A stretch of 32,327 nt of DNA from Eubacteriales Family XIII. Incertae Sedis bacterium. GTDB taxonomy: Bacteria > Bacillota > Clostridia > Peptostreptococcales > Anaerovoracaceae. Each line of letters begins with the position of its first letter. Position 1 is the stretch's first letter. The stretch lies in the NCBI GenBank assembly GCA_031290135.1, contig JAITOE010000217.1:1-32327 (forward strand). Reading direction: 5' to 3'. The translations under genes were made by a program, and so were the position numbers. Below, piece after piece: positions 5,327 through 29,804 of this stretch. The notes below the pieces were generated by a model. The model was not told the origin of the DNA. It made no database searches and was given only the letters and a program-made list of their open reading frames with translations.

Positions 5327-6334
5327 CTACCGGTAAAAGAGCGCCTTTCCGTCCTGGATGCGCAGGTCGATCATGTCACCCGTCCGGTACCGGCCCGACA
5401 GATCGGTCACAAAGTTGAGCGTGCAGTCGTTGCGCCGGACGTAGAGGCGCTGGTAGTCCCCCAGATATTCCACGTGTTCCACCGCAAAATCCCCCGGATC
5501 CAGCGCGACGGAGATGATGCCGGGGCGGATCATGGCCATGCAGGGGCCGTCCGGCAAGCCGGGCGCCGAAAGGCGTATGGTTCCGCTTTCGAAACGGCCG
5601 TTTTGCACGGTGCCGGGCAGGGTGTTCCCGTTGCAGAAATATTCGGCGATGTCAAGCGTTCCGGGAAAGTTGTAGACTTGATCCGGGGTGTCGCACTGCA
5701 TGATTTCGCCCTCCATCATAAAGGCCATGTGGTCGGAGAGCATCAACGCGTCGTCCCGGTCGGCCGTGACTTGTATGACGGTCAGTTCAAAGCGCTCATG
5801 CAGTTCGCGGATCAGCTTTCGCATCCCGGCGCGAGATTCGGTTTCGAGCATGGAAAAAGGTTCGTCCAGCAGCAGAATCCGGGGGTGCATGACCAATGCC
5901 TGCGCAAGCGCCGCCCGTTCGCGTTCCTCTACGGAAAGCGCCGCCGGGCGTTTCGTGCCGAGTGCCTTGCCGTACACCGCCCCCAGCGCGTCCGCCGCCT
6001 GGGAAAGGCGTTTTTTTTCAGGGACGTCCGCCATCTTGAGCGGAAAGCAGATGTTTTCCAGCACGGTCAGGTGCGGAAAAAGACGCAGATCCCTGCATAC
6101 AAGGGAGACGGGGCGCGCTTCCGGCGGCAGCCCGTCTAACGGTTCGCCGTCTAAGAGGATGGCGCCGGCCTGGGTTGCAATCAGTCCGGCGACGGCTTTG
6201 AGAAGGGTGCTTTTTCCGCAGCCGGAATTGCCCAGGACCGAAAAGAATTCGCCGTCCTCCACATGCAGGCTCACCTCAAAAAGCGTTTGCTGTTCGCCAT
6301 GGAACACGTCCAGATTTTCTATTGTCAGGCTCAT
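5327..6334 (-). CDS. ABC transporter ATP-binding protein (PotA/FbpC-like) with degenerate motifs
   Basis: A 335-aa ATP-binding subunit: nucleotide-binding domain (1-235), then a TOBE-like C-terminal domain (about 240-335), the layout of importers for polyamines, iron(III), sulfate or thiamine. Walker A is intact (GNSGCGKST, 35-43) and Walker B is present (ILLLDEP, 153-159). Several catalytic positions depart from the family: the Q-loop glutamine is R81 (VCRDLRLFPH against VFQ), the signature LSGGQ is LSVEE (133-137), the switch histidine is A191 (VTADRDDA against VTHD), and the D-loop region reads SMLE. This suggests weak or lost hydrolysis, or dependence on an unseen partner ATPase. A permease lies upstream on the same strand after a 284-bp repeat-filled gap. 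No substrate-binding protein is in the window. Confidence 0.88.
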   Translation of the reverse strand: MSLTIENLDVFHGEQQTLFEVSLHVEDGEFFSVLGNSGCGKSTLLKAVAGLIATQAGAILLDGEPLDGLPPEARPVSLVCRDLRLFPHLTVLENICFPLKMADVPEKKRLSQAADALGAVYGKALGTKRPAALSVEERERAALAQALVMHPRILLLDEPFSMLETESRAGMRKLIRELHERFELTVIQVTADRDDALMLSDHMAFMMEGEIMQCDTPDQVYNFPGTLDIAEYFCNGNTLPGTVQNGRFESGTIRLSAPGLPDGPCMAMIRPGIISVALDPGDFAVEHVEYLGDYQRLYVRRNDCTLNFVTDLSGRYRTGDMIDLRIQDGKALFYR

Positions 6335-6346
6335 GGGGTTCCCTTT

Positions 6347-6364
6347 CTGTTATGAATCTTAGGT
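6347..6364 (-). repeat. 18-bp dispersed motif, copy 1
   Basis: CTGTTATGAATCTTAGGT read on the plus strand. On the minus strand (ACCTAAGATTCATAACAG) it sits 12 bp upstream of the ABC ATPase start codon, reaching into the likely ribosome-binding region. The same 18 bases recur exactly at 15293-15310 and 18244-18261, and a degenerate form is at 12905-12920. Confidence 0.8.
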
Positions 6365-6376
6365 ATGAACGGCACC

Positions 6377-6580
6377 GCTGCGGGGCGGGCATATCTCCCG
6401 TCATTGCGAGAAGCGGAGCGCCGAAGCAATCCAGTGCCTGTGGATTGCTTCGCTTTGCGCACCTATCTCCATTTGCGCAGCAAATGGCTGGCAGGTGCCA
6501 ATCGAGAACTCCCCGGCTTTAGCCGGGTAGGAGTTCACCGTAGCTCGCAATGACGGAGGATGTGACGCCCGCCCCGCAGC
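6377..6580. repeat. Nested inverted-repeat element (copy A of a structured repeat)
   Basis: A 204-bp palindromic element lies between the ABC permease and ATPase genes. The outermost stem is 14 perfect pairs (6377-6390 with 6567-6580). Inside it is a 13-bp stem, CCGTCATTGCGAG (6398-6410) with 6544-6556. Inside that are an 11-bp hairpin (6422-6432 with 6442-6452), the hairpin CCATTTGC/GCAAATGG (6469-6476 with 6480-6487), and a two-part stem (6506-6518 with 6521-6536). The segment from 6454 onward is shared with 22644-22742. There is no coding content. Nested stems of this kind are typical of REP/BIME-like or MITE-like elements and would form a strong RNA structure in the permease-ATPase transcript. 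Confidence 0.85.
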
Positions 6581-6618
6581 TGGGTAGTTTCGTTCCGTTT
6601 GGCTACAAAACTCCGGCC

Positions 6619-7416
6619 TCATCCGCGCTCCGCGGTCCGGAACAGGCCGGAAACGGCAAAAAAGATCAAAAGCATCAGGACGGAGGGCAGGACGAAGGTC
6701 TCGCGCAGCGCGTTCGCCGCGTTTTCGCCGGAAAGACGCAGGACAAAGCCCGCCGGCGTTCCGGCTTTCTCAATCCCCGCGATGAAAGCGAGGACGTACT
6801 GCGTCAAAGACAGCAGGAACGCAATGGCGCCCGCCGCCGCCAAACAGCCTTTCATGGACGGGAGCGACCCGCGGAAAAAGGCCGCGGACGGCGAAGCGCC
6901 CAAATTCCGCGCATGTTCTTCGAGATCCATGGCGGTTTTTCCCATGACGCTTTTCAGGATCCGCAGCGCAAAGGGGAGGGCCAGGATAACATGGGTACAC
7001 AAGGCGGCGGCAATCATATGGCGGTCCGGGACAAGCCGCGCCAAAAATACAAAAATCCAGGCACCCAAAACAGAGACCGGCACAAAGACCGGCAGCGTCG
7101 TCAGGACAAAAAGCGCGCGCCGGCCTTTAAATTCATAAAAAATGAGCGCGCGGGCGGCGAGCAGCGCAACGGCGGCGGCAAGCAGGGCGGCGACGGCGGA
7201 GAGGGCGGCGGCGCGGAGCATGAGCATGAGGATGCTGATGCCGCCGGGGAACAGAAAAGAAACGCCGCGGCCGCCGGGCAGGGACGCCGCGCCGAAGCCG
7301 TGCAGAACGCCCTCCGCTATCCCGGCCAGATTCAGGACCAGCACAAGCAGCAGGGGCGTGAGGAGAATATAGGGGATCAGGCGGCCGTCCAGCTTTATGG
7401 CTGGCAAACGTTTCAT
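6619..7416 (-). CDS. ABC transporter permease (binding-protein-dependent inner-membrane component)
   Basis: A 265-aa integral membrane protein of the MetI-like superfamily, with about six hydrophobic spans. The EAA loop that contacts the ATPase is present as EEHARNLGASPSAAFFRGSLP in the second half (about residues 168-188; family pattern EAA-x3-G-x9-I-x-LP, here with EEH for EAA). It is somewhat short but complete. The start follows AGGAT at eight bases and lies 15 bp after the stop of the sigma-54 activator gene, so activator, permease and ATPase probably form one minus-strand transcript. The partner ATPase is 284 bp downstream. Only one permease gene is present, so it would act as a homodimer or with a partner encoded elsewhere. 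The substrate is unknown. Confidence 0.87.
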   Translation of the reverse strand: MKRLPAIKLDGRLIPYILLTPLLLVLVLNLAGIAEGVLHGFGAASLPGGRGVSFLFPGGISILMLMLRAAALSAVAALLAAAVALLAARALIFYEFKGRRALFVLTTLPVFVPVSVLGAWIFVFLARLVPDRHMIAAALCTHVILALPFALRILKSVMGKTAMDLEEHARNLGASPSAAFFRGSLPSMKGCLAAAGAIAFLLSLTQYVLAFIAGIEKAGTPAGFVLRLSGENAANALRETFVLPSVLMLLIFFAVSGLFRTAERG

Positions 7417-7431
7417 GATGCAGATCCTTTC

Positions 7432-9444
7432 TCACCACAGGCGGAAATCGCGAAGTTCTATCTCGAATTTTTTAATCTGCCGGTACAACGTGCGCTTCGG
7501 CGTGCGGAGGAGCAGCGCCGCCTTGGTGACGTTGCCGCGCTCCTTTTTCAGGGCGGCCATAATCAGGCCGGGATCGTTTTCGCGGCCGCGCGGAAGGTCG
7601 GGCTCGCCCCGGCTTCCCCATATTTTTTGAAGCGGCAGGGCCGGGATTTCGATGCCCAGTTCTTTTTCCGTGATGCAATCCCCCGTCGCCAGGTTCAGGG
7701 CGCGTTCTATGATGTTTTCAAGCTCGCGGATGTTGCCGGGCCATTCGTAACACATCAGGCGGTGCAAGGCGCTTTCGGAAATGCCTTTCATGTCCAAAGA
7801 CATCCGGGCGCTGTATTCGGAAATAAAGTGGTCAATCAGGAGCGGGACGTCCGACATGTGCCGACGCAGGGGCGGGAGGGAGAACGTCAGCACGTTCAGC
7901 CGGTAGTACAGATCCCTGCGAAACCGGTTTTCTTCGATGCGCGACGCCAGATCGACGTTGGTCGCCGCGATGATGCGCACGTCCACGGGGATGGAGGCGG
8001 TTCCGCCGATGCGGATGATATGCTTCGTCTGCAGGACGCGGAGCAGGGTCGCCTGGATCTCAATGGACATGTCGCCTATTTCATCGAGGAAGATCGTGCC
8101 GCCCTCCGCCAGCTCGAACTTGCCGGGGCAGCCATTTTTGCTGGCGCCCGTGAAAGAACCGCTTTCGTAACCGAAGAGCTCGCTTTCCACAAGCCCCTTG
8201 GGGAGCGAACCGCAGTTGATGGGGATAAACGGGCCGGAAGCGCGCCAGCTGGCGTTGTGGATCGCCTGCGCAAGAAGGTCTTTGCCCGTCCCGCTTTCCC
8301 CCAGTATCAGCACGTTGGAATTGCTTCGGGCGGTGATCTGCCCCAGGGCTTTCACCTCCGCAAGGGCAGGCGACGCGCCGATGATGTCGTCAAAATTGTA
8401 TTTTGCCGTGAAGCCGCTGATCCGCGTCGCCATTTTGTTCAGATTGTGCTGTTCCTCCATAACCAGCACCGTGGAACGCTTTTCGCCCTGTTCGTTCCGG
8501 ATGACGGAGGCGGACACGGACAGGTTCAGCTTTGCGCCGGCGGCGTTCATCACGGAAAATTCGAGCCGCGAGATGTTCTCTGAAAGATCCAGGAGATCGG
8601 CGGGGCCGGCATTCAAATCCAAGACATCCGCCATATTATGCCCCCGGATATCGTCATAGGGAAGCTTGAGGATCAGCGCCGCGCGCTTGTTGCACTGGGT
8701 GACGACGCCCATGTTGTCAAACATGACAATGCCGGAAGAGATGGATTCCAGCGTACTGCTCAGCTGGTGGTTGATGATGAACATTTTTTCGTAAGCTTCG
8801 CGCATCTTCATTTCTTTTTCGATGCCGTCCGCCGCCGCGCAGACCATGGCGAGCGTGTGCTGCGTGGTCGTGTCGCCGGGCCCGATCACGTCAAGGCAGG
8901 CGATGACGGCGCCGTCTTTGTTGCGGATGGGCGCCGCCGAACACACATAGTTGTGGTGCGGCTGGATATAATGCTCGTAACCCCAGATCTGCACCGGCTC
9001 GCCGATGGCGATGCAGGTTCCGATTCCGCAGGTTCCGGCGTAGCGCTCGCTTCTGTTGCAGCCGACGGTAAGGGAGCTTTTCTGCGCCCGCGCCTCTATT
9101 TGCCCCTCCACGCCGATCAGGTCGATCACGTATCCGTCGCTGTCCGTCAGCGCGATGATAAAATTTGAATCCTTGACGAAATGATACAGGTTTTGCGTGT
9201 AAGAGTGGGCGACGGAAAGCAAGGACTTGTTTTGCGCCGTGATTTGCGCAAGCTCCGGCTGCGAGAGGATCTTGTCCTTTACTTCTAAGGGGGATATCTT
9301 ATGGCGTTTCGCGCGCCGCCAGGATTCGAAGATGACCGGGCGGATCCCGTCCGGCGGCGCGTCCGGCATGGACGCGTCATTTTCGATGTAGCGCCGCCAA
9401 AGACGGGCTATGGCGTTTTGGTATTCGTCGTTGTTCGGCGTCAT
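7432..9444 (-). CDS. Sigma-54-dependent activator, AcoR/DhaR-type
   Basis: A 670-aa enhancer-binding protein that uses ATP hydrolysis to open sigma-54 promoters. Domains in order: N-terminal helical and GAF-like sensor (about 75-215), PAS-like domain (about 228-335), AAA+ domain (about 352-590) and a Fis-type HTH (626-665). Walker A is GESGTGKD (382-389). The sigma-54-contacting loop reads GSFTGA (429-434), a Ser variant of GAFTGA. Walker B is IFLDEI (451-456). The frame is open to 9621, but that extension runs through the palindromic operator region, so I chose ATG 9444, which has AAGGAG at seven bases and an extended -10 promoter upstream. It diverges from the M24 operon, whose -24/-12 promoter it presumably activates. 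It may be co-transcribed with the ABC genes below it. Confidence 0.92.
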   Translation of the reverse strand: MTPNNDEYQNAIARLWRRYIENDASMPDAPPDGIRPVIFESWRRAKRHKISPLEVKDKILSQPELAQITAQNKSLLSVAHSYTQNLYHFVKDSNFIIALTDSDGYVIDLIGVEGQIEARAQKSSLTVGCNRSERYAGTCGIGTCIAIGEPVQIWGYEHYIQPHHNYVCSAAPIRNKDGAVIACLDVIGPGDTTTQHTLAMVCAAADGIEKEMKMREAYEKMFIINHQLSSTLESISSGIVMFDNMGVVTQCNKRAALILKLPYDDIRGHNMADVLDLNAGPADLLDLSENISRLEFSVMNAAGAKLNLSVSASVIRNEQGEKRSTVLVMEEQHNLNKMATRISGFTAKYNFDDIIGASPALAEVKALGQITARSNSNVLILGESGTGKDLLAQAIHNASWRASGPFIPINCGSLPKGLVESELFGYESGSFTGASKNGCPGKFELAEGGTIFLDEIGDMSIEIQATLLRVLQTKHIIRIGGTASIPVDVRIIAATNVDLASRIEENRFRRDLYYRLNVLTFSLPPLRRHMSDVPLLIDHFISEYSARMSLDMKGISESALHRLMCYEWPGNIRELENIIERALNLATGDCITEKELGIEIPALPLQKIWGSRGEPDLPRGRENDPGLIMAALKKERGNVTKAALLLRTPKRTLYRQIKKFEIELRDFRLW

Positions 9445-9509: not shown

Positions 9510-9564
9510 TGGCACACTTGGCACACTGTGTCACCCATAAGTGCCATTTGGCACAGGTTGGCAC
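9510..9564. promoter_or_regulatory. Upstream activating sequence cluster, TGGCACA half-sites
   Basis: Six half-sites in 55 bp: TGGCAC(A) at 9510, 9519, 9549 and 9559, and inverted TGTGTCA at 9527 and GTGCCA at 9541. Two palindromes result: TGGCACA-C-TGTGTCA (9519-9533) and GTGCCA-TT-TGGCAC (9541-9554). The cluster lies about 155-210 bp upstream of the -24/-12 promoter at 9720, the usual distance for a sigma-54 enhancer. I infer that the diverging AcoR-like protein binds here. Confidence 0.6.
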
Positions 9565-9718
9565 TTGGTTTTGAACATCGCGCGGGCGCCGCCGCATTGT
9601 GTTTTTCGTTATTTTTTTCAAAAACGGGGAATTTACAGCGTCAGAAGCCCCAATACCCCGTAGTCTTGTTGCGGGGCAGTTTATTTTATTCAGGACAACC
9701 CGCCGAAACAGAAGGGAA

Positions 9719-9735
9719 TTGGCACAGTCCTTGCT
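9719..9735 (+). promoter_or_regulatory. Sigma-54 (-24/-12) promoter of the M24/dehydrogenase/bicupin operon
   Basis: TTGGCACAGTCCTTGCT: GG at 9721-9722 and GC at 9733-9734 with exactly ten bases between, and the full consensus blocks TGGCAC and TTGC. The start codon of the first gene is about 92 bp downstream. Transcription would begin near 9745. Confidence 0.85.
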
Positions 9736-9826
9736 TTAAATATACCGGTAAAAGTTTTTTCGGGGAAACGTACCGCCCGATTGCTTATGGAAACGAAAGC
9801 GTTTGCGTCAAAAGAGGAGGAAAACA

Positions 9827-11062
9827 ATGCCAAGGTCAGGGATGAACGGAGTGGATTTTGAATCGAATGTCAACTTTTATCGTCTGAGAAGCGACAGGCT
9901 GGCAAGAGCCAAGGCAAGCATGAAGAATTACGGCTTGAATGCGGTGATCTGTTATGATTTCGACAATATCCGCTACATCACGGGTACGCATATCGGCGAG
10001 TGGAACCGCAACAAAATGAACCGCTACTGCCTTTTGATCGAGGGGGTTGAGCAGCCGTACCTGTTTGATTCCGCCGCGCCCTCCAAACGCAAACGGGTGG
10101 ACTGGTTGGACGCGGACCATATCATGCCGGCCGTGGGATCCATGCGGGGCGCCATCCCCGAAGAAGCGGGCATGGTGCAGAAGGTGGCGGAGCAGATCAC
10201 GGGCTACCTGAAAGAATACGGCGTCACCGGGAAAGTCGGGATGGACATTATTGACAGTCCGCTCATCCGCGCGCTGGAAAACGAAAAAGTGGACATCGTG
10301 GACGGCCAGCAGGCCATGCTGGACGCGCGGATCATTAAAACGGATGATGAAATCCAGTTGCTGAAACAGTCGGCGGCCATGGTGGACGGGGCGTATTACG
10401 ATCTGGCAAAGGCGCTCCGGCCCGGCATTCTGGAAAATGAGCTGGTGGCCATCGCGAATTTCAAACTGTATAACTGGGGCTCCGAGCTTGTGGAGTTCGT
10501 CAACAGCATCTCCGGCGAGCGCGGGAACCCGCATTGCCATACGTTTTCAAACCGCATGGTGCGTCCCGGCGAGCTGATTTATTTTGACATCGGCAACACC
10601 TACAACGGCTACAAGACCTGCTATTACAGGACATTCTCCTGCGGCGTGCCGAACGCGGCGCAGCGGGCGGCGTATGAGAAAGCGTCCAAATGGATCAAGG
10701 ATTCCATCTCCCAGATCAAGGCCGGGAACACTTCCGCGGACGTAGCGAAGATGTGGCCTGCCGCCACGGACCTGGGATTCAAAAATGAAGAAGAGGCTTT
10801 CTTGCTGCAATTTGCCCATGGCATCGGCCTTGGGCTCTGGGAGAAGCCGATCATTTCAAGGCTGTTCTCCTTGGAGAACCCGTTCGAACTCAAAGAGGGG
10901 ATGGTTTTCGCCATCGAAACCTGGTGCCCGGCGGAGGATGGCTCCGGCAGCGCGCGCATCGAGGAAGAAGTCGTCGTGCGCAAAGGCGGCTGCGAGATCA
11001 TCACCAAGTTCCCTTCGGATGAAATCACGTCCTGCGGCCTGCCAGGCTGCCAGTTCTTGTAA
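9827..11062 (+). CDS. M24-family (creatinase/aminopeptidase P fold) protein, DddP-like branch
   Basis: A 411-aa two-domain M24 protein: N-terminal creatinase-like domain (about 15-160) and C-terminal pita-bread domain (about 170-405). In the family the metal ligands are two Asp, one His and two Glu. Here D254 (FDIGNTYNGYKTC), H331 (FAHGIGLGLWE), E364 (AIETW) and E380 or a neighbour (RIEEEV) are present, but the second Asp is C265 (KTCYYRTF). Stretches such as NIRYITGT and ITKFPSDE recall the DMSP lyase DddP as I remember it, rather than proline peptidases. Substrate unknown; it may be a lyase or hydrolase on a small molecule, possibly with altered or no metal. ATG 9827 is preceded by AGAGGAGG at six bases. 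First gene of a sigma-54 operon. Confidence 0.82.
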   Translation: MPRSGMNGVDFESNVNFYRLRSDRLARAKASMKNYGLNAVICYDFDNIRYITGTHIGEWNRNKMNRYCLLIEGVEQPYLFDSAAPSKRKRVDWLDADHIMPAVGSMRGAIPEEAGMVQKVAEQITGYLKEYGVTGKVGMDIIDSPLIRALENEKVDIVDGQQAMLDARIIKTDDEIQLLKQSAAMVDGAYYDLAKALRPGILENELVAIANFKLYNWGSELVEFVNSISGERGNPHCHTFSNRMVRPGELIYFDIGNTYNGYKTCYYRTFSCGVPNAAQRAAYEKASKWIKDSISQIKAGNTSADVAKMWPAATDLGFKNEEEAFLLQFAHGIGLGLWEKPIISRLFSLENPFELKEGMVFAIETWCPAEDGSGSARIEEEVVVRKGGCEIITKFPSDEITSCGLPGCQFL

Positions 11063-11077
11063 TATCCCGTTTATCGC

Positions 11078-11110
11078 CCGCCGCCCGCAAAGACACAGGC
11101 GGCGGTTTTT
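11078..11110 (+). terminator. Intercistronic terminator or attenuator
   Basis: CCGCCGCC (11078-11085) pairs perfectly with GGCGGCGG (11098-11105), followed by five T. It lies between the M24 gene and the dehydrogenase gene of the same operon, so it may set a high M24-to-dehydrogenase ratio by partial termination. Confidence 0.65.
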
Positions 11111-11147
11111 GTTGCGGTTTTGTCACGCTGTGCGAAGGAGGAAAAAC

Positions 11148-12029
11148 ATGGCAAAAGTTGGTTGGATCGGATTGGGAAACATGGGAAGCCCTATGAGCGG
11201 AAACCTGATTAAGGCGGGGCATGAAGTCACCATCTGGAACAGGACGAAGGCAAAAGCGGAAGCGGTCCTGGCGGCCGGCGCAAAGTGGGCCGACACGCCG
11301 GAGGCGGTGGCTGAAAGCAGCGACTTCATCTTCACGATGGTTTCGGACGGCCCGGCTCTGCATGCGGTCATTCTGGACGGCAACGGCGTGGCCGATGGAT
11401 TGGCCGCCGGAAAGATCGTCATCGACATGAGCACGGTTTCGCCCGCCGAATCCGTAAAGGCAAGCAAGGCGGTGGAAGCCAAAGGCTGCAAGTTCCTGCG
11501 CGCGCCGGTGACGGGCAGCACGGTTCTGGCGCAGAACGCGACCCTCGGCATCCTCGCGTCCGGCGACAGGGCGTCCTATGACAAGGCATTGCCTTTGTTT
11601 GAAGCCATGGGGAAAAATCAGTTTTACGTGGGCGCGAACGAAGAAGCGCGCGTCTTGAAGCTTTCCCTGAACATGATGATCGGCACGTCCATGCAGATGC
11701 TGGCGGAAGCCGTCACCCTTGCCGAAAAGGCAGGCTTGGACGTGGCGCAGGTATGCGATGTGATCGCAGGGAGCGCGGTGGGCTCCCCGGTCGTTGGCTA
11801 CAAAGTGGCGCTGGTGTCCGCAGGCCAGTACAACCCGGCTTTCTCCGTAAAGCTCATGATGAAAGATTTCGATCTGGCGTTCGACGCCGCCAAGCAATAT
11901 GGCGTGCCGCTCCCCATCACGGCCGTGACGAGGCAGGCGCTGCAGTCGGCGGCCGCCACCGGACGGGGCGACAAGGATTTCTCGGTGCTGGTGCAGGTGC
12001 TGGAAGAGCAGGCGAACATCAAACGCTAA
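11148..12029 (+). CDS. NAD(P)-dependent beta-hydroxyacid dehydrogenase (HIBADH/GLYR family)
   Basis: A 293-aa member of the 3-hydroxyisobutyrate/6-phosphogluconate dehydrogenase superfamily. The N-terminal Rossmann motif is GLGNMG (8-13), the substrate-site block is APVTGS (119-124), and the catalytic Lys with its Asn is K171-x3-N175 (KLSLNMM). APVTGS and LNMMIG are closer to glyoxylate/succinic-semialdehyde reductases (GLYR1-like) than to classical 3-hydroxyisobutyrate dehydrogenase, so an aldehyde-acid reduction or the reverse oxidation is likely. It uses ATG 11148 with AAGGAGG at six to seven bases. It is the second gene of the sigma-54 operon, separated from the M24 gene by a terminator-like hairpin. 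It presumably processes the product of the M24 or bicupin step; the actual substrate is unknown. Confidence 0.88.
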   Translation: MAKVGWIGLGNMGSPMSGNLIKAGHEVTIWNRTKAKAEAVLAAGAKWADTPEAVAESSDFIFTMVSDGPALHAVILDGNGVADGLAAGKIVIDMSTVSPAESVKASKAVEAKGCKFLRAPVTGSTVLAQNATLGILASGDRASYDKALPLFEAMGKNQFYVGANEEARVLKLSLNMMIGTSMQMLAEAVTLAEKAGLDVAQVCDVIAGSAVGSPVVGYKVALVSAGQYNPAFSVKLMMKDFDLAFDAAKQYGVPLPITAVTRQALQSAAATGRGDKDFSVLVQVLEEQANIKR

Positions 12030-12073
12030 GGAAGCCGCGCAAAATTATCATGGCATTTGCGCAGCATGGATGG

Positions 12074-12079
12074 TATACT
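12074..12079 (+). promoter_or_regulatory. Possible extended -10 element before the bicupin gene
   Basis: TGG-TATACT (TATACT at 12074-12079) is an extended -10 with no convincing -35 hexamer. It could give the bicupin gene its own weak promoter inside the 100-bp gap after the dehydrogenase gene. Confidence 0.3.
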
Positions 12080-12129
12080 TATAGGGAAAATCATTTAATA
12101 TTTTATGGTGAATTGAGGAGGAATACAAA

Positions 12130-12849
12130 ATGGCAAAAGCTTATGTAAAAAATTATTATGATCTGTCGCCCGCCGCGCCGCTCAGGCACCTCGCGGCACA
12201 CGCCTTCGCGTTTGGCGTGCCGGCGACGATGGATTCTGATACCTACGGCTTCTTCTCCATCTGCGAAATCAGATTCGGGGGCGCTGCCATCCTCGACAAC
12301 CACAAGGACGCGGATCATTGCTATTTCATCCTGTCCGGCAAAGGATACTCGTTCATTAAAGGCAAACGCTATGAATATCAGGTGGGCGACGTGATGTGGA
12401 TTCCGGGCAACAGCGACCACGAAATGTATCCCATCGGCGTGCAGACCCTTAAATTCTTGGTCACGCTGACCCCGAAAGAGTTCAACCAGACCGAGCCGTT
12501 CATCCGGAACATCAACGAGATCTCGCCGGCTACGGCGGCGGGGTACAACAAGGCGAACATCTTCTCCATCTCGACCCCGAAAAACGGCGGCAGCAATACC
12601 ATCGAATTCCATGTCGTCGAAATCTTGCCGGATGGCTCCGTCGTAGGCGAAGCGGTCAAGGAATCCGATCAGATGACCTATGTCATTTCAGGCAAAGGTT
12701 ACGCCGTCGTGGACGGCGAAAAGCTGCCGCTCAAAGCGGAGGACGGGCTTTATGTCCCCAAGGGCGCCAAGTACGAGCTGCATCCCGAAGGCGGCCAGGT
12801 ACTCCGCGTAGCGCAGACCTTCGGGCCGGCCAGGCTTTCCTCGCGGTAA
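12130..12849 (+). CDS. Bicupin protein
   Basis: A 239-aa protein with two cupin domains: about 40-112 and about 155-230. The first keeps possible metal ligands H58, H63 and H97 (NHKDADHCYFILSG and GDVMWIPGNSDH), although the canonical Glu of motif 1 is not in its usual place. The second (SDQMTYVISGKG, YVPKGAKYEL) has no His in the metal positions and is probably structural. Bicupins include ureidoglycine aminohydrolase, dioxygenases and isomerases, and cupins also occur as DMSP lyases; nothing here decides between these. GAGGAGG lies about eight bases before ATG 12130. It is the last gene of the sigma-54 operon and ends in a strong bidirectional terminator. Confidence 0.85.
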   Translation: MAKAYVKNYYDLSPAAPLRHLAAHAFAFGVPATMDSDTYGFFSICEIRFGGAAILDNHKDADHCYFILSGKGYSFIKGKRYEYQVGDVMWIPGNSDHEMYPIGVQTLKFLVTLTPKEFNQTEPFIRNINEISPATAAGYNKANIFSISTPKNGGSNTIEFHVVEILPDGSVVGEAVKESDQMTYVISGKGYAVVDGEKLPLKAEDGLYVPKGAKYELHPEGGQVLRVAQTFGPARLSSR

Positions 12850-12920: not shown

Positions 12921-12950
12921 CAACAAAAGCGGCTTCGGCCGCTTTTGTTG
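12921..12950. terminator. Bidirectional intrinsic terminator with UUCG loop
   Basis: CAACAAAAGCGGC (12921-12933), loop TTCG, and the exact complement (12938-12950): 13 perfect pairs capped by a UUCG tetraloop. The A-rich and T-rich arms make it usable from both sides, for the bicupin gene on the plus strand and the activator gene on the minus strand. Confidence 0.88.
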
Positions 12951-12954
12951 CGTT

Positions 12955-15015
12955 TCATCGATAATCCGAATAATCGATGTTGAATTTTTCCATTTTGCGA
13001 TAGAGGGTGCGGCGGCTGATTCCCAGCAGATCAGCTGATTTTTTGACGTTTCCGCCGGTCTTTTCCAAGCTGGACAGGATCATGCTGTAGCCGCTTGTGC
13101 GCAGGTTCAGCTGCGGCGGGTCGCCCTCCCAGCCCTTCGCGTCCGCGCCCGCAGCTGCCCGCCCGCCGCGCTGTCCGTCCGGCGTCCGGATGCCGTATGC
13201 GGCGTCCCGCGCGTTTTCGGAGACTTGAAGCGGCAAATGCGCCGCGCGGATCGTGGAACCGTCTGCGATGTTCATGGCGCGCTCGATGGCATTTTCCAGT
13301 TCGCGGACATTCCCAGGCCAGGGATAGGCGCGGAGCAGGCCGTACACCTCCGGATCGAAAGACAGGCGCGGTCCTTTGGAGCCGGGAGGCGGCTGAAGGA
13401 AATGATCCGCAAGCTCGCAGACGTCGTCGTCCCGGTCGCGCAACGGCGGGACGTTGATGATCAGCACGTTCAGACGGTAATAGAGATCCTCGCGGAAGCT
13501 TTTGTTTTCCACGGAATCGCGGAGGTTCCTGTGCGTGGCGGCGATGATGCGCACGTTGATCTTTTTGGAGTATTTCGCGCCGATGCGCACGATTTCCCGC
13601 GTCTGGATCACGCGGAGAAGGGATGCCTGCACGTCTAAGGGCATGTCGCCGATTTCATCCAAAAATAGGGTTCCGCCGTCGGCCAGTTCGAATTTCCCCG
13701 GATTCCCGTCCTTGTTGGCGCCGGTAAAGGCGCCGCCTTCGTAGCCGAACAGTTCGCTCTCGATCAATCCTTTCGGAAGGGCGCCGCAGTTTATCGCCAC
13801 GAATGGGCCGCCTGCGTAGTTGCTGCTGTTATGGATGGCCTGCGCTACCAACTCTTTTCCCGCGCCGCTATCCCCCAGAATCAGAATGTTCGAAGAGCTT
13901 TTCGCGGCGTGGCGGCTGAATTCGATCATTTGCCGGAGCGCCGTGGAATTCCCCAGGATGCTGTCGAAGGTAAAGAATGCCTTGAAACCGCCCACCTTGT
14001 TCACCAAGCTGTGGATTTGTTTGGATTCCTCGAAACGCACGACGATGTTTTTCCGGTCCGCTTCCGAAAAATTCACGGACATGGTAAGCTTGACGGGAGG
14101 GAGGCCGGAACCCCGCAGGTAGAAATTGGTTTCCCTGTTCAGGACGGGGCGGGTCAGCTGTGAAAAACGGAACGCGGTGCTTTTTGCGTCGTTGATGGTG
14201 AAAAGGTCAAAAAAATCGCTGCCGTCCACACTGTCCGCGGGATGGATCCCCAGCATGCCGCGCGCGATTTTGTTGATTTGGACGATCCGGTCCTCCCCGT
14301 CCAGCATGATGAAACCGGAGGCGAGGGAGTCAATGATGACGTTCCGCTGGGCGCTGATCGATTCTATGGCGGTGTAGGCCGCCCGGATCTTGAGCTCGTT
14401 GGATATGCCGTCCACGGCGCAGAGCACCATGCCGAGGGTGTGGGGATGGACCCGGTCGTGATGGCCGGTCAGGGTGAGGCAGCCGATGAGTTCGCCGCCG
14501 GGGTCGTAAATGGGGCCCGCGCTGCACGTATAGGCTTTGTGGGGGGAAATGTAATGTTCGTCGCTCCAGATCTGGACGGGCCGGCCCAGGACAAGGCACA
14601 GGCCGATGGCGTTGGTCCCGGCAAAGGATTCGCTGCGGTCGGCGCCGACGACGAGGTTGCTGTGGTCCCTGGCGTTGCTTACGATGTCGGCATCGCCCAG
14701 CAGATCCAGTATGACGCCGTCCCGGTCGCTCAGCATCAGATAAAAGCCCGAACCCTTGACGATGGAGTAAAGCCGTTCCATATAGGCGCGCACGGTCTGG
14801 ATCAGGGGCTTGTTGCCTTCTATCCGCCGGTCGATGTCGCCGGCGCTCAGAACGACGGTTTTTGCGTGTACCGGATCCACGCGGTAGCTCCGGGAACGCT
14901 GCCAGGAAGCCAGGATTTCAGGGCGGACCGTGGAGTCGTCGCAGGGTTCAAAGGCGATGAAATGCTCCCAGGTCGCTTTCAGTTCTGCGCGGTATTCTTC
15001 CGTAAAATTATGCAT
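12955..15015 (-). CDS. acoR: Sigma-54-dependent activator of the acetoin/2-oxoacid dehydrogenase operon (AcoR-type)
   Basis: A 686-aa paralogue of the activator at 7432-9444. Order: GAF-like sensor (about 75-210), PAS-like domain (about 222-330), AAA+ (about 345-590) and Fis-type HTH (645-682). Walker A is GDSGAGKE (381-388), the sigma-54 loop is GAFTGA (428-433) and Walker B is LFLDEI (450-455). A low-complexity Gly/Ala stretch (about 600-640) separates AAA+ from the HTH. I chose ATG 15015 because GGGTGAG precedes it by six bases; a GTG five codons earlier (15030) is possible. It diverges from the dehydrogenase operon, which has a perfect -24/-12 promoter, as in known aco systems. An operator-like palindrome (15042-15055) lies 27 bp upstream of its start, so it may also regulate itself. 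Confidence 0.92.
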   Translation of the reverse strand: MHNFTEEYRAELKATWEHFIAFEPCDDSTVRPEILASWQRSRSYRVDPVHAKTVVLSAGDIDRRIEGNKPLIQTVRAYMERLYSIVKGSGFYLMLSDRDGVILDLLGDADIVSNARDHSNLVVGADRSESFAGTNAIGLCLVLGRPVQIWSDEHYISPHKAYTCSAGPIYDPGGELIGCLTLTGHHDRVHPHTLGMVLCAVDGISNELKIRAAYTAIESISAQRNVIIDSLASGFIMLDGEDRIVQINKIARGMLGIHPADSVDGSDFFDLFTINDAKSTAFRFSQLTRPVLNRETNFYLRGSGLPPVKLTMSVNFSEADRKNIVVRFEESKQIHSLVNKVGGFKAFFTFDSILGNSTALRQMIEFSRHAAKSSSNILILGDSGAGKELVAQAIHNSSNYAGGPFVAINCGALPKGLIESELFGYEGGAFTGANKDGNPGKFELADGGTLFLDEIGDMPLDVQASLLRVIQTREIVRIGAKYSKKINVRIIAATHRNLRDSVENKSFREDLYYRLNVLIINVPPLRDRDDDVCELADHFLQPPPGSKGPRLSFDPEVYGLLRAYPWPGNVRELENAIERAMNIADGSTIRAAHLPLQVSENARDAAYGIRTPDGQRGGRAAAGADAKGWEGDPPQLNLRTSGYSMILSSLEKTGGNVKKSADLLGISRRTLYRKMEKFNIDYSDYR

Positions 15016-15041
15016 TGGTTTCTCACCCACCGTTGTCAGCT

Positions 15042-15055
15042 TGTCACATGTGCCA
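15042..15055. promoter_or_regulatory. Operator/UAS-like palindrome upstream of the dehydrogenase operon
   Basis: TGTCACATGTGCCA is a 12-of-14 palindrome made of the same TG(G/T)CACA half-site found at 9510-9564. It is about 210 bp upstream of the -24/-12 promoter, a normal enhancer distance. Further partial half-sites (TACATGTA near 15081, TTGTCACC near 15094) follow. Confidence 0.5.
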
Positions 15056-15261
15056 TTGTTGGCGCCGTGCGATCTTGTGCTACATGTATCGTTTTGTCAC
15101 CACTCATTATAATGCAAATTACCGGAACAGGGAAGCGTTTTTTTGTTTTTCGCGGTTTTTTTATCAGCAGGAAAAACAGAACGGCGGAATCGCGGGCTTT
15201 TTCGTCCGCTTCAGGGGATCCGGCGCACCGGCGGGGATTGTTTTTAAGGGTTTCGTCATTT

Positions 15262-15279
15262 TTGGCACATTGTTTGCTT
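15262..15279 (+). promoter_or_regulatory. Sigma-54 (-24/-12) promoter of the dehydrogenase operon
   Basis: TTGGCACATTGTTTGCTT: GG at 15264-15265 and GC at 15276-15277 with ten bases between, and both consensus blocks TGGCAC and TTGC complete. The first start codon is 75 bp after the GC. Confidence 0.88.
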
Positions 15280-15351: not shown

Positions 15352-16332
15352 ATGGATATGAAAAAATTTCCGAAAAAGCAGCTGCTGGGCTTCTATGAAG
15401 TGATGTACAGGACGCGCAGGTTCGAAGAGGAAGTGTTTGAGTTCTATAAAAAAGGCTTGATGCCCGGCCTTGCGCACCTTTATCTGGGCGAGGAGGCGGT
15501 GGCGGCCGGCGTGTGCGCCGCGCTTGCGGAGGACGACTACATCGGCAGTTCCCACAGGGGACATGGGCATTTGGTGGCACGGGGCGCGCGCGTGGACCGG
15601 ATGATGGCGGAAATCCTCGGAAAAAAGGACGGATACAGCAAAGGAAAGGGCGGATCCATGCACATCATGGCGCTGGACAAGGGGATATTGGGCGCAAACG
15701 GCATCGTGGGAGGGGAAATCCCTATCGCCACGGGCGCGGCCTATTCGGCGAAATACAGGGGGACGAAGCAGGTCGCGGTTTCTTTCTTCGGCGACGCCGC
15801 GTCAAACGAAGGGACGTTCCATGAAAGCGTCAACATGGCGGCCGCATGGAACCTGCCGGTCATTTACGTGATTGAAAACAACCTGTACGGCATCTCCGTG
15901 GACATACGGGACGTGACCAACACGGAAAACCTGGCGGACAGGGCGATCGGCTATGGAATACCGGGGATCGTCGTGGACGGAATGGACGTGCTGGCCGTAT
16001 ACGAAGCGGCGCAGACGGCGGTGCGGCGGGCGCGCAGCGGCAACGGCCCGACTCTGCTTGAATGTAAAACCTACCGTTGGCAGGGGCATCATGTGGGCGA
16101 TCCGGGCGAATACAGGTCGCGGAAAAACGAAAACGAAAAGACAGAATGGATGGATCGCTGCCCCGTGAAGAATTTCAGGCGCCGCCTCCTTTCGGAGTCC
16201 GGGAAGCTCACGGAAGGGGAAGTGGCGGCGGCGGAGGCGGCGGTGGAGACGGAAACACAAAACGCCGTGCGCTTCGCCGTGGACAGCTCCTATCCGGACG
16301 CACAGGAAGCCTTTCAGGATATTTTTGTATAA
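15352..16332 (+). CDS. acoA: Thiamine-dependent 2-oxoacid/acetoin dehydrogenase E1, alpha subunit
   Basis: A 326-aa E1-alpha subunit of the ThDP-dependent dehydrogenase class (acetoin, pyruvate or branched-chain). The ThDP/Mg motif runs from GDAASNEG (147-154) to ENN (175-177), about the usual spacing, with Ala in place of the usual third Gly of GDG. The active-site loop SSHRGHGH (66-73) and GSMHIMA (101-107) are family hallmarks. AAGGAG lies eight bases or so before ATG 15352. It is the first gene of an operon with E1-beta/E2 and lipoyl-E3 under a -24/-12 promoter and an AcoR-type activator, which favours acetoin (cleavage to acetyl-CoA and acetaldehyde) over housekeeping pyruvate dehydrogenase, though the substrate is not proven. 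Confidence 0.88.
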   Translation: MDMKKFPKKQLLGFYEVMYRTRRFEEEVFEFYKKGLMPGLAHLYLGEEAVAAGVCAALAEDDYIGSSHRGHGHLVARGARVDRMMAEILGKKDGYSKGKGGSMHIMALDKGILGANGIVGGEIPIATGAAYSAKYRGTKQVAVSFFGDAASNEGTFHESVNMAAAWNLPVIYVIENNLYGISVDIRDVTNTENLADRAIGYGIPGIVVDGMDVLAVYEAAQTAVRRARSGNGPTLLECKTYRWQGHHVGDPGEYRSRKNENEKTEWMDRCPVKNFRRRLLSESGKLTEGEVAAAEAAVETETQNAVRFAVDSSYPDAQEAFQDIFV

Positions 16333-16365
16333 TTCATGGCGCCGGGCGCCGGACGGGAGGGAACG

Positions 16366-18252
16366 ATGGGCACGAGAGAAATTCTGTACAGGGACGCCAT
16401 TTGCGAGGCGCTGGACGAAGAGATGGCGCGCGATCAAAACGTGCTGCTTCTGGGCGAGGACGTGGCGTTTATCGGCGGCAATTTCAAGACTTCGGTCGGT
16501 TTGTATGAAAAATACGGGGATTTGCGCGTGAAAGACACGCCCATTTCCGAAGCGGGTTTCGTAGGCATGGCCGTGGGCATGGCGCTCACGGGGCTCCGGC
16601 CTGTCGTGGAACTCATGTTCTCGGATTTTCTGTTGGTCGCGGCGGATCAGGTCGTCAACCAGATGGCAAAAATCCGCTACATGTCCGGCGGGCAGGCGAA
16701 GGTGCCGATGGTGATCCGGACGCCCATCGGCGGCGGGCGTTCGTCCGCGGCGCAACATTCCCAGAGCATGCAGGCCATGGTTTCGCATTTTCCGGGAATG
16801 AAAGTGCTCATGCCCTCCACGGCGCAGGAGGCCAAGGGGCTTTTGAAAGCCGCGATCCGCGACGACAACCCGGTTGTTTTCTTCGAACACAAAATGGAAT
16901 ACGCCAACCGTTTCCAGCTTGACGACGACGTGGAGCTGATACCGATCGGCAAGGCGAACGTGCTGCGGGAGGGCAGGGACATAAGCATCGTCGCCACTTC
17001 CTCGCAGGTCATGAAGTCTGTGCGGGCGGCCGAAAAATTAGAAAAGGAAGGCATTTCCTGTGAAGTCATCGATCTGCGAAGCATCATTCCCTTAGACAGG
17101 GAGACCATCATCCGTTCCGTGAAAAAGACAAGGAAGCTGCTCGTGGTGGACGAGGCGCATGAATTCTGCGGCATCGGCGCGGAGATCGGCGCGAACCTGA
17201 TCGACGACATCTTTTACGACCTGGATGCCCCCATCGGGCGGATCGCGACGCCGAACGTTCCGCTTCCGTTCAGCCCGGCCTTGGAATTCCCCATTATCCC
17301 GTCCGAAGATAAAATCATAGCGAAGGTGAAAGCGATGGCAGGGCAGGGCGAGGCTTTGCCACGCATGTCCCCGCTGGCGGCGAAGATAGCGGCGGCGAGG
17401 GGGATCGAGGTTTCGGGCGTGGAAGGAACGGGCATTTATGGAAAAATCATGAAATGCGACATCCTTGGCGCGGCGGCGGGTTCTGCGGCGCAGGCGGGGA
17501 CAGCAGCGGGTACGTCCGGCGCGAGTATCGCAGCGTCCGCGGCGCACGGCGGCAAGGTGATCCGGGAGATCCGGCCTTATACAGGTGTCCGCAAGATCAT
17601 CGGGGAACGTCTGGCGCACAGCAAATTCACTGCGCCGCATCTGTATTTCACGCAAAAGGTCGATATGGAGGAAATCATCGCGCTTCGCAAAAATGTCAAC
17701 GCGTCCGCCGGAACGAAGACCTCGGTGACGGACTATATTGCGAAGGCCGTGGCGCTGGCGCTTCAAAAGCACCCGGACCTGAACGCCTCCCTGATAGACG
17801 GCCATATTGAGTTTTATGAGAGCGTGAACCTGGGCATCGCGGTGGCGGCACCGTCGGGGCTCATTGTCCCGGTCATCAAAAACGCCGAAAGCAAGAGCCT
17901 GCTGCAGATTTCGGAGGCTTCGGCGCATTGCGTCGAAAAAGCGCGGAACGGCAAGCTGACGCCTGATGAATACAGCGGGGGTACCTTTACGGTCTCCAAT
18001 CTGGGCATGTTCGGCATAGAGAATTTCACTGCCATCCTCAATGAACCGGAGTCGGGGATTTTGGCAGTCAGCGCGACGAAGGACGAGCCGGTGGCGGTTA
18101 CGGATGCTTCGGGCGTCAAGCAGGTGGCGATAAAACCGATGATGAACATCACGCTCACGGTGGATCACAGGCTGATAGACGGCCTGCTGGCGGCGCAGTT
18201 TGTCACCGAAGTGAAACGGATACTGGAAAACCCGCTGGAGATACTGTTATGA
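16366..18252 (+). CDS. Natural fusion: E1 beta subunit joined to dihydrolipoamide acyltransferase (E2) core
   Basis: A 628-aa fusion in one continuous frame. Residues 1-322 are a complete E1-beta (LLGEDVAFIGG at 28-38, the C-terminal transketolase block ending near IPSEDKIIAKV). Residues 333-368 form a peripheral-subunit-binding domain (MSPLAAKIAAARGIEVSGVEG, then GIYGKIMKCDI). An Ala/Gly linker (369-396) follows, then the E2 catalytic domain (398-628) with the active-site motif HRLIDG (H601, D605). There is no lipoyl domain before the binding domain, where E2 normally carries one to three. The lipoyl domain is instead on the following E3 gene. ATG 16366 follows GGGAGGG; an upstream ATG (16336) has no clear ribosome binding site. 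Separate subunits are the norm; I infer that E1-beta is held on an E2 core. Confidence 0.9.
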   Translation: MGTREILYRDAICEALDEEMARDQNVLLLGEDVAFIGGNFKTSVGLYEKYGDLRVKDTPISEAGFVGMAVGMALTGLRPVVELMFSDFLLVAADQVVNQMAKIRYMSGGQAKVPMVIRTPIGGGRSSAAQHSQSMQAMVSHFPGMKVLMPSTAQEAKGLLKAAIRDDNPVVFFEHKMEYANRFQLDDDVELIPIGKANVLREGRDISIVATSSQVMKSVRAAEKLEKEGISCEVIDLRSIIPLDRETIIRSVKKTRKLLVVDEAHEFCGIGAEIGANLIDDIFYDLDAPIGRIATPNVPLPFSPALEFPIIPSEDKIIAKVKAMAGQGEALPRMSPLAAKIAAARGIEVSGVEGTGIYGKIMKCDILGAAAGSAAQAGTAAGTSGASIAASAAHGGKVIREIRPYTGVRKIIGERLAHSKFTAPHLYFTQKVDMEEIIALRKNVNASAGTKTSVTDYIAKAVALALQKHPDLNASLIDGHIEFYESVNLGIAVAAPSGLIVPVIKNAESKSLLQISEASAHCVEKARNGKLTPDEYSGGTFTVSNLGMFGIENFTAILNEPESGILAVSATKDEPVAVTDASGVKQVAIKPMMNITLTVDHRLIDGLLAAQFVTEVKRILENPLEILL

Positions 18253-18261
18253 ATCTTAGGT
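18244..18261 (+). repeat. 18-bp dispersed motif, copy 3
   Basis: CTGTTATGAATCTTAGGT, plus strand, overlapping the last two codons and stop of the E1-beta/E2 gene and ending 19 bp before the E3 start. It therefore encodes Leu-Leu-stop here, while the other two exact copies are non-coding. Confidence 0.8.
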
Positions 18262-18280
18262 GTTATAAGAGGAGGTACAG

Positions 18281-20080
18281 ATGATAGACGTAATTGTCAT
18301 GCCCAAGCTGGGGTTCAACATGGATGAAGGGAAATTGGTTTCCTGGTATAAAAACGAGGGAGAAAAAATCGCGAAGGGCGAGCCGCTTTTTTCGATTGAA
18401 ACGGACAAAACGAGCATCGACGTGGAGGCGACAAGGGACGGCGTGGTCAGAAAGCTGTTCGTCGAGGCGGGCGAAACAATCCCCGTCACCCTGCCGATCG
18501 CCATCCTTGCGGACGCGGCGGACGATATTGCGTCCGAAACGGAAAAAGCCTATGCGCTGCTTGGCAAAGGGGACGGGGTTCCGGCGGCGCCTGTGGCAGC
18601 GGCTCCGGTTTCCGGGGCGTCGTCAGCTTCTGCGGCGCCAGCTCCGGCTTCTGCGGCCCCGGTTCCTGCCGCCGCGTCCGGCGGGCAGCCCGCGAAAAGC
18701 GGCAAGGACTTCGACTTCGACGTCATCGTCATCGGCGGAGGCCCCGGCGGTTACGTCGCGGCCATCAAAGCGGCGCAGTCCGGGAAACGCACGGCCATCG
18801 CGGAGAAAGAAAATTTCGGCGGCGTCTGCCTGAACCGGGGATGCATCCCGACAAAAACCCTGCTGCGCAGCGTGGAAGCGCTGAACGCGGTAAAAGAATC
18901 GGCCGGATTTGGCGTCGTGGGCGTGGACGCTTCGGGCGCCGGGATCGACATGAAAAAGGTGCAGGAACGCAAGGGAAAAGTGGTGAAACAATTGGTCGTC
19001 GGCGTCGGCGCCCTGCTGAAGGGGAACGGCGTCACGGCGCTTCCGGGCGTAGGAAGCATTCTGGATCCGCACAGGGTGAAAGTGGGGGAGACGTCCTATT
19101 CCGCCGAATACATCATCATCGCCACCGGTTCTGCCGTGAAACCCCTGCCCGTCCCGGCAGACAAGGGCGTGGAACTGCTGACCAGCGACGAGGCGCTTGC
19201 GCTGACGGAAATCCCGGATGAAATCACCGTCATCGGCGGCGGCGTCATCGGCATTGAATTCGCGTATTTTCTGGCGCAGGCGGGCGCGAAGGTGAGGGTC
19301 GTGGAATTTCTGGACCGCATTCTTCCGATGGTGGACGAGGAGATTACGGCGCAGGTCACGGCGCGGCTTGCCGGAATGGGGATAGAGATCCACACCGGCG
19401 CGAAGGTGACGAAGATCACAAAGGACGCGGTCTATTTTGAGAAGGACGGCGCGGAAAAGAAGCTCGCCGCGCAGAAGGTGCTGGTGGCGGTCGGGCGCGT
19501 GCCTGACACGGGCGGCATTGACTGCGCGGGGCTGGGCATAAAGACGGACCGCGGCGCCATCGTGACGGACGGCGCCCTGCGTACCTCGGTTCCGAACATA
19601 TTCGCCGTCGGCGACGTGAACGGGAAGTCCATGCTGGCGCATACGGCTTCCATGGAAGGAATCGTGGCGGTTGAAAATATCTGCGGCCATAAAAAAAGCA
19701 TGAATTACGCGAACATTCCGAGCGCCGTTTACATCCAGCCGGAGATCGCCTGCGTGGGTCTGACGGAGGCGCAGGCAAGGGAACAGCACAAGCAGGTCAA
19801 GACGGGCAAATTCCCGCTCGCCGCCAACGGCAAGGCGAAAGTGGCGGGTGAAGCGGCGGGGCTTGCGAAGGTGATCGTAGACGCGGAATTCGGCGAGATT
19901 CTGGGGGTACATCTGTACTGCGTCCACGCCACGGACATGATTGCGGAGGCCGTGGTCGCCATGAATTTAGAATCCACCGCGGAAGAGATCGCCGCGTCCG
20001 TCCACCCGCACCCGACGGTGTCGGAGGCCGTGCAAGAAGCCGTCCACGCCGCGATCGGCAAGGCGGTGCATTTTTTGTAG
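18281..20080 (+). CDS. acoL: Lipoyl-domain-bearing dihydrolipoamide dehydrogenase (E3)
   Basis: A 599-aa E3 with an N-terminal lipoyl domain (1-78; lipoyl lysine K43 in ETDKTS), an Ala/Pro linker (about 98-138) and a full flavoprotein disulfide reductase. FAD motif GGGPGG (152-157), redox disulfide C183-C188 (CLNRGC), an NAD-binding GGGVIG motif in the middle, and the C-terminal HPHPTVSE base. It reoxidises dihydrolipoyl groups with NAD. Lipoyl-E3 fusions are known in AcoL-type and some Gram-positive complexes. Here this lysine is the only lipoylation site visible in the operon, so the E3-borne arm would have to visit both the E1 and E2 sites. AGAGGAGG lies six bases before the start. It is the last gene of the operon. 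Confidence 0.93.
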   Translation: MIDVIVMPKLGFNMDEGKLVSWYKNEGEKIAKGEPLFSIETDKTSIDVEATRDGVVRKLFVEAGETIPVTLPIAILADAADDIASETEKAYALLGKGDGVPAAPVAAAPVSGASSASAAPAPASAAPVPAAASGGQPAKSGKDFDFDVIVIGGGPGGYVAAIKAAQSGKRTAIAEKENFGGVCLNRGCIPTKTLLRSVEALNAVKESAGFGVVGVDASGAGIDMKKVQERKGKVVKQLVVGVGALLKGNGVTALPGVGSILDPHRVKVGETSYSAEYIIIATGSAVKPLPVPADKGVELLTSDEALALTEIPDEITVIGGGVIGIEFAYFLAQAGAKVRVVEFLDRILPMVDEEITAQVTARLAGMGIEIHTGAKVTKITKDAVYFEKDGAEKKLAAQKVLVAVGRVPDTGGIDCAGLGIKTDRGAIVTDGALRTSVPNIFAVGDVNGKSMLAHTASMEGIVAVENICGHKKSMNYANIPSAVYIQPEIACVGLTEAQAREQHKQVKTGKFPLAANGKAKVAGEAAGLAKVIVDAEFGEILGVHLYCVHATDMIAEAVVAMNLESTAEEIAASVHPHPTVSEAVQEAVHAAIGKAVHFL

Positions 20081-29795: not shown

Positions 29796-29804
29796 TTTTA
29801 GTTC

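Follow-up and report, generated by a model that had tools for sequence, protein, structure and literature searches.

What does a Family XIII bacterium of the Eubacteriales degrade with an M24-family protein, a beta-hydroxyacid dehydrogenase and a bicupin that are encoded side by side behind a sigma-54 promoter? The question is raised by a gene trio in a 32,327-nt stretch of contig JAITOE010000217.1 (the window), taken from a source genome of 2.76 Mb in 274 contigs, for which an M24 search gave Clostridiales Family XIII genomes as the nearest relatives. The initial annotation saw in the trio an inducible catabolic unit made of families that form no familiar pathway, and both views are supported here; it missed the adjacent AcoABCL-type complex as a partner, however, and included the bicupin, a variable member. 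Judged by sequence comparison, the trio and the aco operon (15352-20080) are highly likely to be coupled as one inducible catabolic module, with a separate AcoR-like sigma-54 activator and -24/-12 site in front of each half; the trio genes very probably encode steps of one pathway that degrades a small organic acid or polyol. In the proposed scheme, the M24 enzyme would cleave or rearrange a small carboxylate to give an acyloin or 2-oxo acid, which the thiamine pyrophosphate (TPP) complex would split into an acyl-CoA and an aldehyde (or CO2). The NADP-type dehydrogenase would then reduce the released small aldehyde acid (of the glyoxylate, malonic or succinic semialdehyde type), which in aerobes an additional semialdehyde dehydrogenase would oxidize, and the bicupin may contribute an accessory isomerase-like step that is absent or replaced in several relatives. 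For this reading as a whole, including a step order and a chemistry that we infer, we estimate a probability of about 0.5.

The evidence for coupling comes from gene conservation. Scanning with one genome per species gave 32 M24 loci. Identity to the M24 protein of the window is 82-91% in genomes of or close to Family XIII, 67-76% in a Treponema, a spirochaete metagenome-assembled genome and further Firmicutes (among them Eubacterium ramulus and an Anaerovorax), and 43-60% beyond. The trio is conserved as a neighbourhood: the dehydrogenase gene adjoins the M24 gene in 21 of the 32 loci, most of which also have the bicupin (about 18 loci in all), and Aco-type genes share the M24 locus in 14. 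An M24 protein at 63% identity or more occurs in 12 of 148 relatives, and every one of the 12 also encodes an E1-alpha at 74% identity or more; of the other 136, only three have an E1-alpha above 70% identity (Fisher test, ~3e-15, a value that ignores relatedness). Among the 23 genomes reached through the loci, an E1-alpha at 66% identity or more is found in nearly all that have a close M24 protein, and the dehydrogenase is present in these genomes even where it is unlinked to M24. In L045 and L049 it lies on other contigs, which rules out its replacement by the Fe-alcohol dehydrogenase seen there, a protein near the PDB entry 'Cvir-Hbd2' (1e-133). No close M24 protein besides the window's own was found in 391 class-level genomes. 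By these comparisons, the genes for M24, the dehydrogenase and E1-alpha are inherited together across phyla, and the conserved core consists of M24, the dehydrogenase and the TPP/lipoamide complex; cupin, short-chain dehydrogenase/reductase (SDR)/TIM-barrel, VOC and amidohydrolase genes vary.

The association recurs, in other arrangements, in distant lineages. On plasmids of Phaeobacter, Rhodobacteraceae SC52, Marinovum, Pacificitalea and Tritonibacter, an M24 gene (~50% identity) heads a gene run that continues with E1-alpha, E1-beta, a lipoyl protein, a succinate-semialdehyde dehydrogenase (SSADH)-like gene and E2; SDR genes and a ribose-type ATP-binding cassette (ABC) importer adjoin these runs, and three of the five stretches also have a dehydrogenase of the hydroxyisobutyrate dehydrogenase (HIBADH) type in the vicinity. 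The order in Streptomyces is dehydrogenase, M24, SSADH-like, VOC, E1 fusion and E2. In genome G809, SDR, TIM-barrel isomerase, Gfo/Idh and ribose-type ABC genes come before the M24 gene, and E1-alpha, E1-beta, E2 and E3 come after it. The order in G702 runs from regulators through M24, the dehydrogenase and a single-domain cupin to a symporter. An M24 gene of 34% identity adjoins E1-beta/E1-alpha in Haloferax mediterranei.

In the window, the complex is encoded by three genes on the plus strand: an AcoA-like E1-alpha of the acetoin dehydrogenase type (15352-16332; PDB E1-alpha matches at 4e-63), a 638-aa frame that joins E1-beta to the E2 acyltransferase catalytic core (16336-18252), and an AcoL-like dihydrolipoyl dehydrogenase (18281-20080; TIGR01350, 521.9 bits, over cut-off). 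The fused frame matches PRK09212 of NCBIfam over residues 15-335 (398.7 bits, over cut-off) and E2 models at 344-638, unlike the orthologous loci, where E1-beta and E2 are separate genes; the lipoyl domain is found on the E3 protein instead, where a lipoyl-like N-terminus can be read from the sequence. E1-alpha, E1-beta, E2 and E3 are all encoded in one operon with an AcoR-type activator and a sigma-54 promoter, as is expected of AcoABCL. One rival explanation would be ordinary acetoin/2,3-butanediol catabolism, with the trio as a loosely attached accessory that supplies acetoin precursors. It would be in keeping with the -24/-12 sites, with the likeness of the regulators to AcoR and of the complex to AcoABCL, and with the three relatives that have E1-alpha without M24; a sigma-54 regulon of AcoR and acoABCL is known from Clostridium (PMC6615313). 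Co-inheritance of M24 and the dehydrogenase with the complex across phyla nevertheless makes this decidedly unlikely, as does the content of the clusters, which hold sugar, tripartite ATP-independent periplasmic (TRAP), branched-chain or symporter systems and not acetoin genes. We know of no role of either M24 or the dehydrogenase in acetoin use.

The M24 protein itself (9827-11062, plus strand, 411 aa) is a non-canonical member of the pita-bread family, in which it is placed by PF00557 (1e-33). It falls far under the cut-offs of all NCBIfam equivalogs, the best being DddP (NF043017, 86.4 bits against 600), and also misses the DoeA models NF038259 (69.7 against 575) and TIGR02993 (40.1 against 613). 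Its predicted fold (predicted local distance difference test score 84.6) matches Xaa-Pro dipeptidase/prolidase, DoeA, DddP (Z 32) and creatinase (Z 31-32) with tied Z scores of 31-34, a ranking that is uninformative as a guide among them. In a maximum-likelihood tree, it belongs to a 20-member clade (support 99/99) that spans Firmicutes, Treponema, Alphaproteobacteria and actinomycetes; DddP, on a long branch, groups outside this clade with rhizobial proteins (100/100), and DoeA is on a separate branch. The phylogeny called for in the initial annotation, built with DddP and DoeA among its rows, thus separates both from the clade of the window protein; creatinase is a profile match (E 9e-22). 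All 20 clade members carry H236, H238, D254, C265-Y266-Y267, H331, E364 and E379. The metal ligands of DddP are D295, D297, D307, H371, E406 and E421 (PMC4108388), and four of the six are kept in the window protein, where D254, H331, E364 and E379 align with them; the D307 column is Cys (C265), the D297 column is Gly or another non-ligand in the clade, and H236 sits where DddP has Trp. The ligand columns of DoeA are E, P, Y, M and T, the whole metal site being lost. Judged by these residue columns and the tree, metal binding is probably retained in the window protein, which is unlikely to be a prolidase or a DddP.

The initial annotation had likened the M24 protein to DddP, a lyase of dimethylsulfoniopropionate (DMSP), and the likeness stands only in so far as DddP is its best NCBIfam model. 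A DddP-like lyase, which would beta-eliminate a leaving group from a DMSP-like zwitterion, might also be suggested by DddP as a full-length solved relative, by the fold score and by a weak match of the N-terminal cupin domain of the bicupin to the DMSP lyase DddK (E ~3e-7), but it is highly improbable given the loss of the D297 and D307 ligands, H236 at the Trp position, the place of DddP outside the clade and fold scores equally shared by prolidase, DoeA and creatinase. DMSP cleavage by the M24 protein was rejected on residues and tree, and kinship of the cupin to DddK found no support in a fold search, where ureidoglycine aminohydrolase and DUF861 bicupins were the top matches. About as improbable is a genuine Xaa-Pro dipeptidase or aminopeptidase with unrelated neighbours: prolidases are the top single-sequence PDB matches of the protein and tie with others in fold score, and the peptidase-type catalytic His is retained, but the five-ligand Xaa-Pro dipeptidase set (D, D, H, E, E) is incomplete, with Cys265 across the clade at the position where the compared prolidases have their second metal Asp. 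Moreover, the regulation and the neighbours are catabolic, and the source genome holds three further M24 relatives.

Some other M24 genes were encountered. One relative has two copies (G058:C70 and G058:C26), ~78% identical to the window protein. A distant clade (~33% identity, with the Cys also present) is found at L068 5131-10794 and L069 1984-10644 beside genes that by eye belong to thiolase, beta-keto-acid cleavage enzyme, 3-hydroxyacyl-CoA-type dehydrogenase, SDR and cupin families, and may represent another catabolic cluster. Members of a third clade, in which the Asp is kept, occur at L067 8202-12923 and L071 7991-11613; their neighbours appear by eye to be homocitrate-synthase-like, D-2-hydroxyacid dehydrogenase and zinc alcohol dehydrogenase genes.

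The dehydrogenase (11148-12029, plus strand, 293 aa) belongs to the GLYR/HIBADH family, with NAD_binding_2 and NAD_binding_11 domains (PF03446, 3e-51; PF14833) and the catalytic Lys and Asn all present, and its closest solved relative is 3pef (PDB, 3e-62). It scores under every NCBIfam cut-off, the best match being tartronate-semialdehyde reductase (258 bits). For the Geobacter relatives 3pef/3pdu, the reference list of PMC5399074 points to studies of succinic semialdehyde activity. The residues that define the plant glyoxylate/succinic semialdehyde reductases (GLYR) are T95, S121, K170, N174, F231 and D239 (PMC5399074). They correspond in the window to T96, T122, K171, N175, F232 and D240, which are kept in nearly all orthologues, so that S121 to Thr is the sole change, and a WNRT motif of the NADP type is present. 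Both the correspondence and the NADP coenzyme are presumed from family knowledge and a constant offset of one. By this alignment, the dehydrogenase keeps the residues of NADPH-dependent glyoxylate/succinic-semialdehyde reductases, in agreement with its earlier description as GLYR-like.

The preferred scheme has the dehydrogenase act after the complex, and its chief rival places the enzyme before it. M24 would then make or release a 2,3-dihydroxy acid, whose beta-hydroxyl the dehydrogenase would oxidize, and the TPP complex would cleave the resulting 2-hydroxy-3-oxo acid to acyl-CoA and glyoxylate. Members of the HIBADH family oxidize beta-hydroxy acids, the tartronate-semialdehyde reductase model links such compounds, and SDRs and sugar-type ABC importers are found in several clusters; the WNRT motif suits reduction somewhat better, however, and the SSADH-like aldehyde dehydrogenase of the aerobic clusters is no obvious glyoxylate enzyme. 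We regard this order as unlikely.

Several observations weigh against the scheme preferred here, in which M24 feeds the complex and the dehydrogenase reduces its product. The functions of all module members are assigned by sequence comparison. The aerobic clusters hold both a HIBADH-type dehydrogenase and an SSADH-like enzyme, and the dehydrogenase may therefore act before the complex, oxidizing a beta-hydroxy acid. Since the AcoR paralogue of one operon differs from that of the other, the operons may not share an inducer. Neither PDB nor NCBIfam matches tell pyruvate from acetoin dehydrogenase for the window E1, which could be an ordinary dehydrogenase of either kind. Finally, E1-alpha occurs without M24 in the three relatives already mentioned, and one M24 genome (L050/G919), perhaps incomplete, is without E1-alpha.

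The regulatory features ascribed earlier to the trio were largely recovered. A perfect -24/-12 consensus match, TGGCACAGTCCTTGCT, lies at 9720-9735 on the plus strand. Taken alone it is within chance for a 32-kb window, in which 0.6 matches are expected with one mismatch allowed; such a match also lies 62-107 bp upstream of the M24 orthologue in 14 of 26 loci, and the source genome has a sigma-54 gene (PF04552, E = 3e-61). The enhancer palindromes are clustered as described: seven TGKCAC/GTGMCA half-sites occur in the 400 bp upstream of M24, against a shuffle mean of 0.45, and seven were reached in none of 300 shuffles. Their TGGCAC/TGTCAC cluster at 9510-9564 is a probable activator-binding region, and the enrichment is also seen in most orthologous loci. 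Divergent to the trio, and with a divergent partner kept in most orthologous loci, is the gene of an AcoR/DhaR-type sigma-54 activator with GAF, PAS, AAA+ and Fis helix-turn-helix domains (7435-9444, minus strand; PF00158 1e-66, PF01590, PF02954), whose top NCBIfam model, DhaR, is under its cut-off. The acoA operon has the same layout, with a second AcoR-type activator in divergent orientation (12955-15030, minus strand; PF00158 3e-68, PF01590, PF02954), half-sites of the same type (15042-15095) and a second perfect -24/-12 match, TGGCACATTGTTTGCT, ahead of acoA (15263-15278, plus strand).

Good ribosome-binding sites, of the GGAGG type, precede each trio gene, and the strong terminator reported at the end is a bidirectional hairpin at ~12921-12950 (-22 kcal/mol; z -6.9 on the plus and -6.2 on the minus strand). 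The proposed sigma-54 operon is thus borne out in promoter, genes and terminator, but a single transcript for the trio is only plausible: it is not certain because a terminator-like hairpin with a T-tract, possibly an attenuator, lies between genes 1 and 2 (11078-11110, plus strand; -22.2 kcal/mol, z -2.1). No conserved counterpart of this hairpin was seen in the other orthologous gaps examined. A sigma-70-like site with a TG-extended -10 precedes the bicupin (12050-12079), and the number of such sites is within chance expectation.

The bicupin (12130-12849, plus strand, 239 aa; PF07883) is, by genome comparison, the variable and least conserved member of the trio. Its N-terminal domain retains H58, H63 and H97 in the alignment, and the C-terminal domain, without His or metal ligands, is the degenerate one that had been noted. 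The fold resembles (S)-ureidoglycine aminohydrolase (TM 0.80, 11% identity).

Elsewhere in the window, an ABC ATPase and a single permease, with no binding protein seen, follow the first AcoR-like gene (5327-7416, minus strand); an AEC (auxin-efflux-carrier-like) transporter gene replaces this pair in 12 orthologous loci. At 28122-31505, a RACo-like ASKHA/ferredoxin protein adjoins a thiamine-diphosphate enzyme that is acetolactate-synthase-like (PRK06112, 790 bits, over cut-off). Rfam and tRNA scans of the whole window gave no matches. At L072 6270-8021, a 583-aa protein annotated as an extracellular solute-binding protein begins with an apparent winged-helix DNA-binding region and is likely a regulator derived from a sugar-binding protein.

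Ectoine, DMSP, AI-2, trigonelline, vitamin B6 and deoxy-sugars were considered as substrates and, with no evidence for any, not adopted. A literature search, with most subscription journals outside it, found no paper that joins three of M24, acetoin dehydrogenase, cupin and hydroxyisobutyrate dehydrogenase, and no relevant matches on M24/SSADH combinations; the study of the clostridial sigma-54 regulon lists acoABCL, and the words M24, cupin and hydroxyisobutyrate are absent from it (PMC6615313). The families are known, and their combination and the Cys-site M24 clade appear undescribed in the literature searched; there is a fair chance of a new pathway. Somewhat short of an even chance, in our estimate, is a cross-domain pathway of bacteria and haloarchaea in which a non-peptidase M24 class with a Cys-modified metal site feeds a dedicated TPP/lipoamide complex that is annotated as acetoin/pyruvate dehydrogenase. 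Many M24 genes are labelled merely 'Xaa-Pro peptidase', and it is the neighbours and the active site that mark this clade as catabolic; its members from Firmicutes, spirochaetes, Alphaproteobacteria and actinomycetes are linked to a TPP complex, and haloarchaea have more distant relatives. Because the gene set and a promoter are defined and some hosts can be cultured (Phaeobacter inhibens, Clostridium aminobutyricum, Eubacterium ramulus), the substrate is within reach of standard growth experiments and enzyme assays, and some of the 'acetoin dehydrogenase' annotations could be put right.

Of the known systems with which the module can be compared, acoABCL/AcoR of Bacillus and Clostridium is one with which it has TPP-dependent E1-alpha/beta, E2, dihydrolipoyl dehydrogenase, an AcoR-type activator and a -24/-12 promoter in common; it differs in the M24, dehydrogenase and cupin genes under their own second AcoR-like activator and in the E1-beta/E2 fusion, and acetoin as its substrate is putative. 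The M24 protein shares with DddP the two-domain pita-bread fold, a NIRY-type N-terminal motif and the D/H/E/E metal residues, but has C265 for D307, lacks two of the six ligands in all, carries H236/H238, forms a separate clade and was seen with no DMSP genes. With the ectoine hydrolase DoeA, it has in common the fold, the loss of a canonical metal ligand and a catabolic rather than proteolytic role; the whole metal site is gone in DoeA, whereas the window protein keeps D, H, E and E and belongs to a separate clade. The dehydrogenase is like the GLYR enzymes of Geobacter (3pef/3pdu) in family, NADP-type motif, catalytic Lys/Asn and substrate residues, and differs from them by Thr for S121, by scores under every NCBIfam cut-off and by its operon with M24. 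The bicupin shares its fold with the (S)-ureidoglycine aminohydrolases, from which it is set apart by the low identity, a score of 40.1 bits against the NCBIfam cut-off of 445 and a degenerate domain that is C-terminal.

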